Positions 40,630 through 45,527 of a stretch of 64,000 nt of DNA are shown here, one piece after another. Location of the stretch: contig NZ_DAHVHY010000003.1 of assembly GCF_027322205.1 (NCBI RefSeq), positions 17,966-81,965 on the forward strand, given 5' to 3'. Source of the DNA: Acidithiobacillus sp. Lineage in GTDB: Bacteria > Pseudomonadota > Gammaproteobacteria > Acidithiobacillales > Acidithiobacillaceae. Every line of letters begins with the position of its first letter. Position 1 is the first letter of the stretch. The notes below the pieces were generated by a model. The model did not search any database and was not told the origin of the DNA. It saw only the letters and a list, made by a program, of their open reading frames with translations. Position numbers and translations under genes: made by a program.

Positions 40630-41865
40630 TCAGACACGCGCCGCCGCATCCAAGCGGCGTAGGGTCTCATCCGCACCTGCCGCCGCCGTCAGGTCGGCGA
40701 CATTATCCTTAGTGAAAAAGCCCTGAAAATCTCCGAAGCGCTGTACATACTCCACAATGAGTGAGGAATGCTCCGAGGCGCTGGAGAAGATCTGCTTTAG
40801 CCCTTCCTGCTCTGAGCCAATGACCTCCAGCAGGAATTTCTGCCCGCAATTCTGCAGGGCGCTTACCACATGGTCGATATTGATCTGATCTCCGATGCGT
40901 CCATCCTTCACCGCCACCGCCAGATGATGCAAACGTGGTCCAAAGTTTCGTACAAAGGCTTCGGTGGGCGAAGGTTTGCCAATCAGATGGTTGCAGAAAT
41001 ACGGGTGATTCGCTGCCGTAAAAACCTTGGCAGGGCTCTGGAGTTCGCTGGCGAAATGCACACTCTTGGTAACATTCGTGGACGAGTTCTGATCAGGAAT
41101 ATCGTAAGAACCCCAATAGTAATAACTGGACAGGGTCAGATACTCGAGAATGGCCGCCTCCCGGTTCTGGCTGTATACCCGTGTGGCCAGATGGTCGATG
41201 GGCAGGAGCAGCCTGTCGAGGCCGAGTTTTTCACGCAATGCCTTGGCCCGTTCAAAAGCCGCCTGCATGTCCTCCCGGATGGACGACACACCCAGCGAAT
41301 AGACGCGGATATGATCATCGGGGCGCTCCCAGTAACCAACAATATTATGGGTATAAGGAGAGGGCTTAACGATGGCCATATTCCCGGGTAACTCCAGCTG
41401 CCAGACCTGCTCCTGATTGAAAAAGCGAATTTCCCGAACCTTCTGCGTCTCCACCACCTCGTGCAGATTTTTAACCTGAAAGATTTCACCCATATACCGG
41501 GAGTTTGGCCGTTGCGCGCCAATGGGGTAGACCTCATTGAGGCTGCGGAAGATACCGTGCAGGTTGGGATCTTTCACCTCACGGACCAAGACGTCGGGAG
41601 CATTCATATCGATACGCAGGATGTGGGTCGAATGCCGCTCCGTCTCCAGGGTGACCAGATAGTTATAAGGTGTCATCAGACAGAGTTCACCGACGTAGGC
41701 CGCAGAATGCCCAGGCTCTACCGTAATCATCAGACTATCGATGCGGCCGATGTTTTCGCTCAGCCCCTGGCGGTCTCGATCTTCCAGCAAGCGGCCCAGC
41801 CACTCTTCAAAAAAAGCGGAATTCTGCTTGTCGCCCTGTCGCTGGAAATCTATTGACGCATTCAT
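40630..41865 (-). CDS. VOC-superfamily (HPPD-like) dioxygenase-like protein with extra N-terminal domain
   Basis: A 411-residue protein. The C-terminal half has two VOC-type repeats with IDHLATRV (His225), LHHLAVAV (His313/314) and IVEYVQRFG (Glu372), spaced like the 2-His-1-carboxylate iron site of 4-hydroxyphenylpyruvate dioxygenase, followed by the family-like FQGFFTKDN. The first ~190 residues are not recognised. The ATG at 41865 follows GGGGTGACTGGC. It is divergent from tetR; a substrate cannot be assigned. Confidence 0.65.
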   Translation of the reverse strand: MNASIDFQRQGDKQNSAFFEEWLGRLLEDRDRQGLSENIGRIDSLMITVEPGHSAAYVGELCLMTPYNYLVTLETERHSTHILRIDMNAPDVLVREVKDPNLHGIFRSLNEVYPIGAQRPNSRYMGEIFQVKNLHEVVETQKVREIRFFNQEQVWQLELPGNMAIVKPSPYTHNIVGYWERPDDHIRVYSLGVSSIREDMQAAFERAKALREKLGLDRLLLPIDHLATRVYSQNREAAILEYLTLSSYYYWGSYDIPDQNSSTNVTKSVHFASELQSPAKVFTAANHPYFCNHLIGKPSPTEAFVRNFGPRLHHLAVAVKDGRIGDQINIDHVVSALQNCGQKFLLEVIGSEQEGLKQIFSSASEHSSLIVEYVQRFGDFQGFFTKDNVADLTAAAGADETLRRLDAAARV

Positions 41866-41897
41866 GCCAGTCACCCCAATTCGCACCTCAGGCAGCC

Positions 41898-41926
41898 AGT
41901 GTAACGCCATTGATCAAAGTGGCCAA
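41898..41926 (-). promoter_or_regulatory. Predicted promoter of the VOC gene
   Basis: Minus strand TTGGCC (41926-41921) and TACACT (41903-41898), spacer 17, 33 bases before the ATG. It lies in the 145-base divergent gap shared with tetR. Confidence 0.45.
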
Positions 41927-41973: not shown

Positions 41974-42002
41974 TTGACAAGATACCGCTTGGTCGGTATC
42001 TT
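41974..42002 (+). promoter_or_regulatory. tetR promoter overlapped by a perfect operator palindrome
   Basis: Consensus -35 TTGACA (41974-41979), spacer 17, -10 TATCTT (41997-42002). The 20-base sequence 41981-42000 has perfect 7-bp arms GATACCG and CGGTATC around CTTGGT, filling the spacer and the first part of the -10 box. This is where a TetR dimer would repress itself. The ATG at 42011 begins only 8 bases after the -10 box, so the mRNA should be nearly leaderless. Confidence 0.75.
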
Positions 42003-42010
42003 TCAAACCT

Positions 42011-42628
42011 ATGACGACACAGGCTATACGCAAGACCCGCAATCCGGAGCAAACGCGCAGCGATCTGCTGGATGCCGCCTATACCGAGATTCTGGAGTCC
42101 GGCTATCAGGCCGCCAGCCTAGAGCGCATTCTCGCCAACACTTCAGTCAGTAAGGGCGCGCTTTACCATCACTTCGGTACCAAGCGCGAACTTGGCCTGG
42201 CCGTCATCAAAGAAGTGATCGCCCCACAATTGGCGGCCCGCTGGTTCGCCCCTTTTACCGAACACGACGATCCTTTAGCCAGCCTCCAGCGCATCCTCGA
42301 AGAAAAAATCAGGACTGCAGATGAATCGGTAATTCGTTACGGTTGCCCCCTGAATAATCTTATCCAGGAGATGAGTCCGCTGGATGAAGAATTTCGCCGT
42401 GGCCTGCAGCAAATTCTTGAACTCTGGGTTGAGGTGATGGCAACAGCGCTGGCGGATGGACAACAAGCACAGAAAGTCCGCGCCGACGTCGCGCCCAAAG
42501 AGGTCGCCCTGTTCATCGTTGCCGCCATTGAGGGCTGTGTCGGCCTCGGCAAAAATGCCCAATCCGTCGAAGCCTATCAGCGGTGTCTGCGACAACTGCA
42601 GCTTTATGTCCAATCACTGGCAGCCTGA
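42011..42628 (+). CDS. TetR-family transcriptional repressor
   Basis: 205 residues. RSDLLDAAYTEILESGYQAASLERILANTSVSKGALYHHFGTKRELGLAV is the standard TetR helix-turn-helix; the ligand-binding domain (about 60-205) resembles regulators with a CPLNNLIQEMS segment. No ribosome site is possible given the promoter position. It precedes the dienelactone hydrolase and old yellow enzyme genes and presumably controls them, as NemR controls an ene-reductase in E. coli (analogy only). Confidence 0.9.
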   Translation: MTTQAIRKTRNPEQTRSDLLDAAYTEILESGYQAASLERILANTSVSKGALYHHFGTKRELGLAVIKEVIAPQLAARWFAPFTEHDDPLASLQRILEEKIRTADESVIRYGCPLNNLIQEMSPLDEEFRRGLQQILELWVEVMATALADGQQAQKVRADVAPKEVALFIVAAIEGCVGLGKNAQSVEAYQRCLRQLQLYVQSLAA

Positions 42629-42682
42629 ATCAGACTGCCCCGTATTACGCGTAACACCATACTAACCTGGAGAGGAACCCTT

Positions 42683-43411
42683 ATGTCCCAGATTACATCT
42701 GAATGGATTCAGCTCGATAATGGTCCCCGTGCCTGGTACGCCCGGCCTGCCGGTGCGGGTCCCCATCCGGCCATTGTGGTATTCATTGAAGCCTTTGGCG
42801 TCAATGCCCATTTCCAGGACGTCGCTGAGCGTCTCGCCAAAGCCGGATATTGTGCCATTGTTCCCGACCTTTATCATGGCAAGATCTATGAATATTCAGA
42901 CTTTAATGGGGCCATCGGCCATCTCAGGACACTGCACGATGACCTTGCCATGCAAGAAGCCGGACTGGCCATCGCGGCATTGCAGCAGCGCGCTGAAGTA
43001 CGCAAAAACGCGATTGGTGTGCTGGGCTTCTGCATGGGTGGGCGTTTTGCCTTCATGGCGAATGCCGTCCATGCGGACAAACTCAGCGCCTCCGTGGCTT
43101 TTTATGGTGCTGGTATCGCTCCTGATCAGGACCCGGCCGGACGCAAGCCCCTGCTGCATCTGGTGGATCAGATGCGCGCCCCACTGCTGCTACTGTATGG
43201 CGCGGAAGATCAGTCCATCACCCCCGAAGAGCATGGCCGCATTGCTACCGCGCTGAGCACCGCGCAAAAGCGCTATACCCTGACCCTCTTCCCAGGCGCA
43301 CCACACGGCTTTTTTGCTGATCCACGGGACAGTTTCCGTCCGGAGGCGGCTAAAGAAGGCTGGCGTCTGGCGCTCGACCACTTCGCCCGTCATCTCGGAA
43401 CCACGGCATGA
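42683..43411 (+). CDS. Dienelactone hydrolase family protein
   Basis: Alpha/beta hydrolase with the DLH triad visible: Cys in GFCMGG, Asp in GAEDQSI, His in GAPHGFF, plus the EAFGVNAH loop with the Glu that partners the Cys. 242 residues is typical. A strong GGAGAGG precedes the ATG. The stop overlaps the next ATG by ATGA. DLH proteins open lactone rings in chlorocatechol degradation, but most bacterial members have unknown substrates. Confidence 0.92.
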   Translation: MSQITSEWIQLDNGPRAWYARPAGAGPHPAIVVFIEAFGVNAHFQDVAERLAKAGYCAIVPDLYHGKIYEYSDFNGAIGHLRTLHDDLAMQEAGLAIAALQQRAEVRKNAIGVLGFCMGGRFAFMANAVHADKLSASVAFYGAGIAPDQDPAGRKPLLHLVDQMRAPLLLLYGAEDQSITPEEHGRIATALSTAQKRYTLTLFPGAPHGFFADPRDSFRPEAAKEGWRLALDHFARHLGTTA

Positions 43412-44484
43412 GTCTGAAGCTTTTTTCATCCTGGACCTTGCGCAGTGTCGAGTTGCGTAACCGCATCTGTGTGGCACCCATGTGCCAGTACGCCACCCCG
43501 GATGGAGTGGCGAGTGACTGGCACATGGTGCACCTCGGCAGCCGCGCTGTGGGTGGTGCGGGCTTGGTCATGGTCGAGGCCAGCGCAGTAAGTCCGGAGG
43601 GTCGTATTTCTCCCCGCGACCTGGGCATCTGGACTGATGCCCAGGCACGGGCCCTGGCACCCATCGTCGCCTTCATGAAGGAACAGGGGGCGGTTACCGC
43701 CATCCAGATCGCGCATGCCGGACGGAAGGCCTCCACACAGCCGCCCTTCCTCGGTGGTCATCCTATTGCAGCGAATACAGAGGACGGCTGGGAGCCGGTA
43801 GGACCCAGTGCCCTGCCCTTTAGCCATAGCCACACGTCACCACATGCTATGGTCGAACGAGACCTGGAAAAGGTACGCAAAGATTTTGTGGCCGCAACCC
43901 GACGAGCTCTCGCGGCGGGTTTTCAAGTGCTGGAATTGCACATGGCCCACGGCTATTTGCTGCACAATTTTCTCTCTCCGATCAGCAATCAACGCACCGA
44001 CACCTACGGCGGCAGCCTGGAAAACCGTATGCGCCTGCCCCTCGAAATCACCGATGCCGTACGTGCGGCCTGGCCCGAACACCTGCCCCTCTGGGTGCGC
44101 ATCTCCGCTACAGACTGGGTCCGCGGCGGCTGGGATTTGGAGCAATCTGTGACCCTTTCCAAGATACTCAAAGCACATGGCGTCGATGTTATCGATTGCA
44201 GCAGCGGCGGCATGACGCCCGACGCGGTGATCCCCGCCGGTCCCGGCTTCCAGACGCCCTTCGCCAGCATTATCCGCCAGAAGGCGGGCATTCCCACAGT
44301 CGCGGTCGGCTTGATCACCGAGGCCATACAGGCCGAGCATATCCTCGTCACGGAGCAGGCCGATGGCGTAGCCCTGGCGCGTGAACTGCTGCGCAATCCC
44401 TACTGGCCCCTCCACGCTGCCGGGGAACTCGGTGTAGATGTCGCCTGGCCTGAGCAGTATGACCGCGCCAGACCGCGCCCCTGA
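43408..44484 (+). CDS. Old yellow enzyme, YqjM-like NAD(P)H:flavin oxidoreductase
   Basis: FMN ene-reductase, 358 residues. APMCQYATPDG carries the YqjM-type cysteine that tunes the flavin, QIAHAGRKAS and HMAHGYLLHNFLSPISNQRTDTYGGSLENR are the substrate and FMN segments. Members reduce activated C=C bonds of enones, quinones or nitro compounds. Translationally coupled to the dienelactone hydrolase; a terminator follows, so the tetR unit likely ends here. Confidence 0.93.
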   Translation: MSLKLFSSWTLRSVELRNRICVAPMCQYATPDGVASDWHMVHLGSRAVGGAGLVMVEASAVSPEGRISPRDLGIWTDAQARALAPIVAFMKEQGAVTAIQIAHAGRKASTQPPFLGGHPIAANTEDGWEPVGPSALPFSHSHTSPHAMVERDLEKVRKDFVAATRRALAAGFQVLELHMAHGYLLHNFLSPISNQRTDTYGGSLENRMRLPLEITDAVRAAWPEHLPLWVRISATDWVRGGWDLEQSVTLSKILKAHGVDVIDCSSGGMTPDAVIPAGPGFQTPFASIIRQKAGIPTVAVGLITEAIQAEHILVTEQADGVALARELLRNPYWPLHAAGELGVDVAWPEQYDRARPRP

Positions 44485-44603: not shown

Positions 44604-45527
44604 ATGACCAGAGAATCGCCAGATCCCATGGCTCTGCTACCATTTACTGCCCTTGCCCTGCTCTCCCTGATCTGGGGCTATAACTGGGTGGTTATGAAAG
44701 TCGCCATTGCGGACTGCCCGCCCCTGCTCTTTGCAACCTTGCGTGTCTGGGTGAGTGTACTGGTGCTCATTCCGCTGATGCTGTGGATGAAGCGGCCATT
44801 GGCCATGCCCGCAGCGCGTTACATCATTCCTTTTGGTTTGTTGCAGACCACCGGCTTCGTCGGTCTTGCCCTGTGGGCACTGGAATATGACGGGGCAGGC
44901 AAAACAGCGATCCTCGTCTACATGATGCCTATCTGGCTCATTATTTTTGCCTGGCCCGTGCTGGGCGAACGCCTGCATGGCTTGCAGTGGCCTGCTCTGG
45001 CTCTGGCCTTGCTCGGTCTGGTAGCCATCCTCCGGCCCTGGAGCTTTAGCGGTGACTGGACCGGCAGTCTGCTTGCCCTGCTGTCAGGAATTTTATGGGC
45101 CGCCTCTGCCCTCTGGCAGAAGCGTTATGCGCCGCCGGGCCTGGATCTCTTTAACGGCACCCTCTGGCAAAGCATTTTTGGCGGATTGGGCCTGATCATC
45201 CTCACCTTACTGATGGACCCGCTGCAAGTGCACTGGACACCACTGTTTATCGGCGCGCTGCTCTATAACGCCATCCCCGGAACCGCTCTCGCCTATTTTC
45301 TCTGGGCCTATGCCTTGCAGGAACTCCCATCGGGCATTGCCGGTATGGGCACCCTGGCAGTACCACTGATCGGCGTGGTTGCTGCCTGGCTGCAATTGGG
45401 CGAGCGGCCGGGCCACTGGGAGGGAATCGGCATGGCTGGCATTTTTATCGCCCTGGCTTTGGTGGGCTGGCGACACCTGCGCCCTCGCAATCGCGACGAC
45501 ATTATCCTGCCCACCGGGCAGGAGTAA
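44604..45527 (+). CDS. EamA/DMT-family transporter
   Basis: 307 residues with about ten membrane segments in two EamA repeats (LSLIWGYNWVVMKVAIADCPPLLFATLR and LALLSGILWAASALWQKR). Members export amino acids or metabolites; the substrate is unknown. It is separated from the tetR unit by a terminator and meets the next gene convergently after 6 bases. Confidence 0.85.
   Translation: MTRESPDPMALLPFTALALLSLIWGYNWVVMKVAIADCPPLLFATLRVWVSVLVLIPLMLWMKRPLAMPAARYIIPFGLLQTTGFVGLALWALEYDGAGKTAILVYMMPIWLIIFAWPVLGERLHGLQWPALALALLGLVAILRPWSFSGDWTGSLLALLSGILWAASALWQKRYAPPGLDLFNGTLWQSIFGGLGLIILTLLMDPLQVHWTPLFIGALLYNAIPGTALAYFLWAYALQELPSGIAGMGTLAVPLIGVVAAWLQLGERPGHWEGIGMAGIFIALALVGWRHLRPRNRDDIILPTGQE

Follow-up and report, generated by a model that had tools for sequence, protein, structure and literature searches.

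The 64-kb stretch of DNA analysed here (the window) carries, on its plus strand, a gene for a TetR-family regulator, followed by genes for a dienelactone hydrolase family protein (DLH), an old yellow enzyme (OYE) and an EamA-family transporter. The features of this locus are listed in Table 1. The start of the OYE gene overlaps the stop of the DLH gene by 4 nt (ATGA). The gene order tetR-DLH-OYE was kept in all of the family loci examined (25/25), and the EamA gene was present in 18 of these 25 orthologous loci, being missing from the stretches of the other seven. On the minus strand, most of the genus has a 426-aa open frame (40630-41910 in the window) between nadC and tetR. This frame had no Pfam or NCBIfam match; it is 86-98% identical where it is found, and is missing here in two same-genus members and in the sister genera.

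Table 1. Promoter, operator, translation signal and genes of the tetR locus (positions are those of the window).
Feature	Position	Strand	Basis
-35 box TTGACA	41974..41979	+	sequence; promoter scan
Operator, perfect inverted repeat AAGATACCG-N6-CGGTATCTT		41979..42002		sequence; kept in 26/26 orthologues
-10 box TATCTT, spacer 17, within the right operator arm	41997..42002	+	promoter scan
Predicted transcription start, leader 0-2 nt	42009..42011	+	inferred from the usual -10 to +1 distance
TetR-family repressor (TetR_N + TetR_C_13), 205 aa, without Shine-Dalgarno	42011..42628	+	domain matches, energies
Shine-Dalgarno GGAGAGGAA of the DLH gene	42669..42677	+	sequence
Dienelactone hydrolase family protein (DLH), likely second operon gene	42683..43411	+	PF01738 2.9e-47; synteny
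Old yellow enzyme / NamA-like ene-reductase (OYE)	43408..44484	+	PF00724 1.8e-68; synteny
EamA-family transporter, possibly co-transcribed, after a 120-nt gap	44604..45527	+	domain match, synteny

We observed the TTGACA -35 box and the palindrome GATACCG-N6-CGGTATC where the initial annotation of this DNA had placed them, the latter at 41981-42000. The perfect arms of the palindrome are longer than had been claimed and extend to 9 bp (41979-42002), so that the full operator reads AAGATACCG-CTTGGT-CGGTATCTT, with CTTGGT as the N6. The -35 and -10 boxes had been described as flanking the palindrome. Both elements are present, but they do not flank it: the right arm contains the entire -10 box, and the -35 box overlaps the left arm by one base, its final A being the first base of that arm. 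The operator spans this last -35 base, the entire spacer and the entire -10 box. The promoter matches the consensus at 10 of 12 positions (TATCTT, the -10 box, at only 4 of 6) and is the top site of the scanned 1.2 kb, a call that presumes a sigma-70-type factor.

The ATG at 42011 is the sole possible start of tetR. It is the first after the in-frame stop TGA at 41975-41977, and no ATG, GTG or TTG occurs in frame between the two. Eight bases (42003-42010) separate it from the -10 box, in agreement with the earlier claim. Since transcription usually begins 7-9 bp past the -10 box, the tetR transcript is predicted to start 0-2 nt before the ATG, and 'nearly leaderless' would be the right wording for it.

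The conservation of this region was evaluated with 26 orthologues found in Acidithiobacillaceae, using a gapless alignment on the -35 box and the mean pairwise identity. The promoter-operator block was kept in all 26. The -35 box was TTGACA in 24 of these and TTGACG in two, and the identity was 0.98 at the -35 box, 0.88 over the spacer/operator and 0.75 at the -10 box. Across the same 26 members it was 0.28-0.30 over the 60 upstream bases and 0.31 over the six bases past the -10 box. Counted from the first -35 base, the ATG stood at a distance of 35-38 bases in every case. An identity of 28-31% beside this narrow range of distances indicates that the bases between the -10 box and the ATG can vary in sequence, but not in number. 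If +1 lies 7-9 bases past the -10 box, as expected, the leader would be 0-3 bases long across the family, leaving no room for a Shine-Dalgarno.

Indeed, no fitting or conserved Shine-Dalgarno was found for tetR in the 26 family orthologues. The mean anti-Shine-Dalgarno duplex energy was -8.5 kcal/mol for DLH. For tetR it was -4.3, a value that arises from GGT-type operator bases ahead of the point where transcription is predicted to begin. The DLH starts nearly always have a Shine-Dalgarno, the exception being L018 (one of 26 without a good one). The constant distance, the unconserved bases ahead of the ATG and the absence of a Shine-Dalgarno support the nearly leaderless start that had been predicted for tetR.

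We also evaluated the occurrence of the palindrome in the genome, as the initial annotation had suggested. With at most one mismatch allowed, a single copy of the 20-bp palindrome is present in the window's own genome (a 2.28 Mb draft, with the window in contig 84). This points to a repressor that acts locally and on its own gene. No further strict site indicative of a wider regulon was found in this genome. Relaxed ACCG-N6-CGGT sites numbered 73 versus 131 in the reversed control; being fewer than in the control, they gave no signal.

In nine sister-genus loci, a second copy of the operator (ATACCGATTGGTCGGTAT or near) was observed between tetR and DLH (L019 and L021-L026, with a shorter form in L018 and L020). 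It is absent from the window's genus. This copy, too, lies in the spacer between two promoter-like boxes (e.g. TTGCGT-N17-TATCCT), and in eight of the nine it stands 20-45 nt ahead of the DLH start, usually with a good Shine-Dalgarno. For L021, the script picked a DLH start that overlaps the operator; the true start probably lies further downstream. As the same module can stand 20-45 nt ahead of DLH, the module does not itself force a leaderless start, and the leaderless placement is specific to tetR. The duplicated copy is independent evidence that the palindrome is the operator. Together with the conservation of the palindrome as a part of the promoter in all 26 orthologues, it supports the earlier proposal of self-repression.

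Scanning 84,980 species genomes yielded 80 further loci, which are the best-scoring ones and not a random sample, with some near-duplicate rows. Of the distant rows, 79 had enough sequence upstream of the gene; in 36 of these, TTGAC stood 33-40 bases ahead of an in-frame start, and the distances peaked sharply at 36. When one family member was counted along with the distant rows, TTGAC occurred in 37 rows versus a mean of 1.4 for the other permutations of these five letters; the one high permutation, CTTGA, overlaps TTGAC. Half-sites of the type ATACC/GGTAT precede most of the distant homologues, as in the window. Two operator registers occur in these homologues. In the first, which is also that of the window, the operator lies within the spacer; in the second, it covers the -10 box and the start codon, the latter being part of the right half-site GGTATG (e.g. 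L125, TTGACACGGGGTGAAGGTACATACATACTGGTTGGTATG). The GGTATG-with-ATG register was seen in L125, L135 (Asticcacaulis taihuensis), L140, L143, L147, L148, L158, L159, L163, L164 and L176, and the phyla with the second register are Acidobacteriota, Gemmatimonadota, Planctomycetota, Thermodesulfobacteriota and Pseudomonadota. In the window's branch of the protein tree, 32 of 34 rows have the first register. With unclassified rows excluded, the register needs three changes over this tree, a quick one in which many deeper forks are weak.

The new observation is that the distance from -35 to ATG stays at 34-37 nt in the distant homologues while the operator shifts its register, and that in some of them a half-site holds the start codon. 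We would give even odds to a broader reading, in which promoter, operator and start form one composite element throughout the AcuR/TetR_C_13-like branch in several phyla, with a -35-to-start distance of 34-38 nt and two registers, and in which leaderless, low-level translation of the autorepressor has been selected across the family and is not a peculiarity of acuR. Our search of the literature found nothing specific on leaderless genes of Acidithiobacillus or on a two-register design.

When the window's own genome was searched with the leaderless pattern TTGACA-N16-18-TANNNT-N5-9-ATG, eight matches were obtained versus none in the reversed control. In one of these (L094; G000 contig 22, near 19825), TTGACA-N17-TAGCTT-N7-ATG precedes a CDP-alcohol phosphatidyltransferase-like gene and is similar in many relatives. 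The gene resembles pgsA, and looks like another leaderless candidate. Another match (L095; G000 contig 55, near 32354) has TTGACA...TATGAT followed by TTAGCACTC-N9-GACTGCTAA, a genus-conserved, CIRCE-like heat-shock operator. With this operator and a frame of 14 codons, L095 was rejected as a leaderless start, and such a false positive means that the pattern alone is no proof.

The regulator belongs to the TetR family, since PF00440 (1.1e-11) and PF16925, TetR_C_13 (2.5e-16) both matched over their curated cut-offs. The label 'tetR' given initially holds for the family, but not in the sense of a tetracycline repressor, the protein being an AcuR/NemR-related regulator. The top NCBIfam model was AcuR (NF051457), with 87.4 bits, below the cut-off of 247. 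AcuR proper is ruled out by this score and by the gene content (DLH, OYE and EamA, without a linked acuI-like gene). NemR scores 61.6 bits against the profile, as a more distant relative than AcuR. A close relation to NemR was not found, as NemR (4yze) gave only 3.4e-6 (phmmer) and was outranked by many other TetR proteins. In a comparison with 12 diverse homologues, the regulator aligned with its relatives from the first residues, and C112 and C176 were invariant. C112 falls opposite the cysteine of NemR that is numbered 108 in the chain of PDB 4yze; we take this residue to be Cys106, offset by two positions. A cysteine at this position is common among TetR_C_13 relatives. As the GC motif is frequent in the C-terminal domain family, C112 may be structural, and a conserved cysteine is by itself no proof of sensing. 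Close relatives of the regulator occur in Acidithiobacillus ferrivorans and A. concretivorus, as seen in the scan of species genomes, which makes the host a bacterium of the Acidithiobacillus type. In two same-genus genomes, an additional copy of the regulator is broken or partial (L060 and L061, 62-67% identical); the one in the L060 genome has a near-operator, GATGCCGACCAATCGGTATC, nearby.

We consider 41974-42011 to be, with a probability of about 0.8, the single promoter, operator and start module of an autorepressed tetR-DLH-OYE(-EamA) operon with a leaderless or nearly leaderless tetR. That the palindrome arose by chance within an ordinary promoter, the operator being elsewhere, would be in keeping with the 20 palindrome matches (arms of at least 9 bp, gap of at most 10, several nested) in the 64-kb window. 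Since palindromes with 9-bp arms are not rare alone, the deciding statistic is conservation, and the unusual part is the overlap with the promoter. The palindrome is conserved in 26 of 26 orthologues, is duplicated before the next gene in nine, and fits the half-site type found before most distant homologues; a chance origin is thus extremely improbable, and was rejected on conservation.

Two other readings accept the palindrome as an operator. The regulator could also control the minus-strand gene at 40630-41910 from a shared divergent operator, as a promoter-like minus-strand site (TTGAAA 42006-42001 / TATCTT 41984-41979, 9/12) overlaps the palindrome. However, its -35 (TTTCAA on the plus strand) is missing in most orthologues, the neighbour gene is absent at several loci that retain the operator, and the symmetry of the operator yields a mirror -10 automatically. 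Divergent control is unlikely, and is not supported by these comparisons. It is also quite unlikely that the main transcript comes from further upstream and that tetR has a leader without a Shine-Dalgarno, with the palindrome as a true autorepressor operator. An unseen upstream promoter (read-through, a second promoter or another sigma factor) would indeed give a leadered message; but the upstream bases are unconserved, in contrast to the -35 and -10 boxes and their distance to the ATG, and there is no conserved Shine-Dalgarno. The upstream neighbour is, moreover, transcribed divergently, and other members lack it or have another gene in its place, so that there is no upstream transcription unit that is conserved. 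The sequence comparisons support well, but do not prove, a local autorepressor of a tetR-DLH-OYE operon whose tetR is leaderless or nearly so.

The module could work as follows. One dimer of the regulator, or a pair of dimers, most likely occupies the palindrome. Bound there, the regulator would mask the whole spacer, the -10 box and the 3' end of the -35 box, excluding RNA polymerase and repressing its own operon. An inducer, probably a reactive electrophile or an unsaturated carbonyl/quinone, would release the repressor. This guess at the inducer class is based on the OYE and DLH enzymes and on the alignment of the invariant C112 with the NemR cysteine; an electrophile or unsaturated carbonyl is reasonable by analogy, but a guess. 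Transcription would then begin at the predicted site, and tetR would be translated at a low rate from a leaderless or almost leaderless end, whereas DLH, with its normal Shine-Dalgarno, would be translated well.

To our knowledge, few cases of leaderless translation have been proven in Proteobacteria, and this locus provides a clean comparative case. As the same module precedes a tetR predicted to be leaderless and, in sister genera, an apparently leadered DLH, the effect of start placement is testable with the module as its own control. The analysis further yields a predicted regulator, operator and operon for an uncharacterised DLH/old-yellow-enzyme system of acidophiles.

The closest parallel is the acuR-acuI-dddL operon of Rhodobacter sphaeroides, in which the gene of a TetR-family autorepressor is also the first. 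The acuR operator, TAATAGAC-N6-GTCTATTA, has 8-bp arms and overlaps the promoter TTGATT / TATTAT, and point mutations in it are constitutive. The 5' end of acuR was mapped exactly to the AUG, only the downstream genes have a Shine-Dalgarno, and an acuR fusion was translated at ~7.5% of the level of an acuI fusion. The authors predicted the same plan for acuR-acuI pairs in other bacteria, and cited Tn1721 tetR and lambda cI as earlier leaderless repressor messages (PMC3017554). The system here shares with acuR the regulator gene in first place, the inverted repeat overlapping the -35/-10 region and the Shine-Dalgarno on the downstream gene only, and AcuR is its nearest named relative. It differs in its half-site, in having DLH and OYE instead of acuI/dddL, and in a predicted leader that may be 0-2 nt. 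E. coli nemR-nemA likewise has a TetR-family repressor gene beside an OYE-type reductase gene (here PF00724, 1.8e-68), and its cysteine aligns with C112; NemR senses quinones, N-ethylmaleimide, methylglyoxal and hypochlorite via cysteines including Cys106 (PMC7464077). However, NemR is the more distant relative and has other partner genes. Tn1721 tetR and lambda cI resemble our case in producing a repressor from a leaderless message (predicted here), but belong to another subfamily, with another operator and operon type. By these comparisons, the design is one already known from acuR, and the system here would work like acuR, though it is not AcuR itself.
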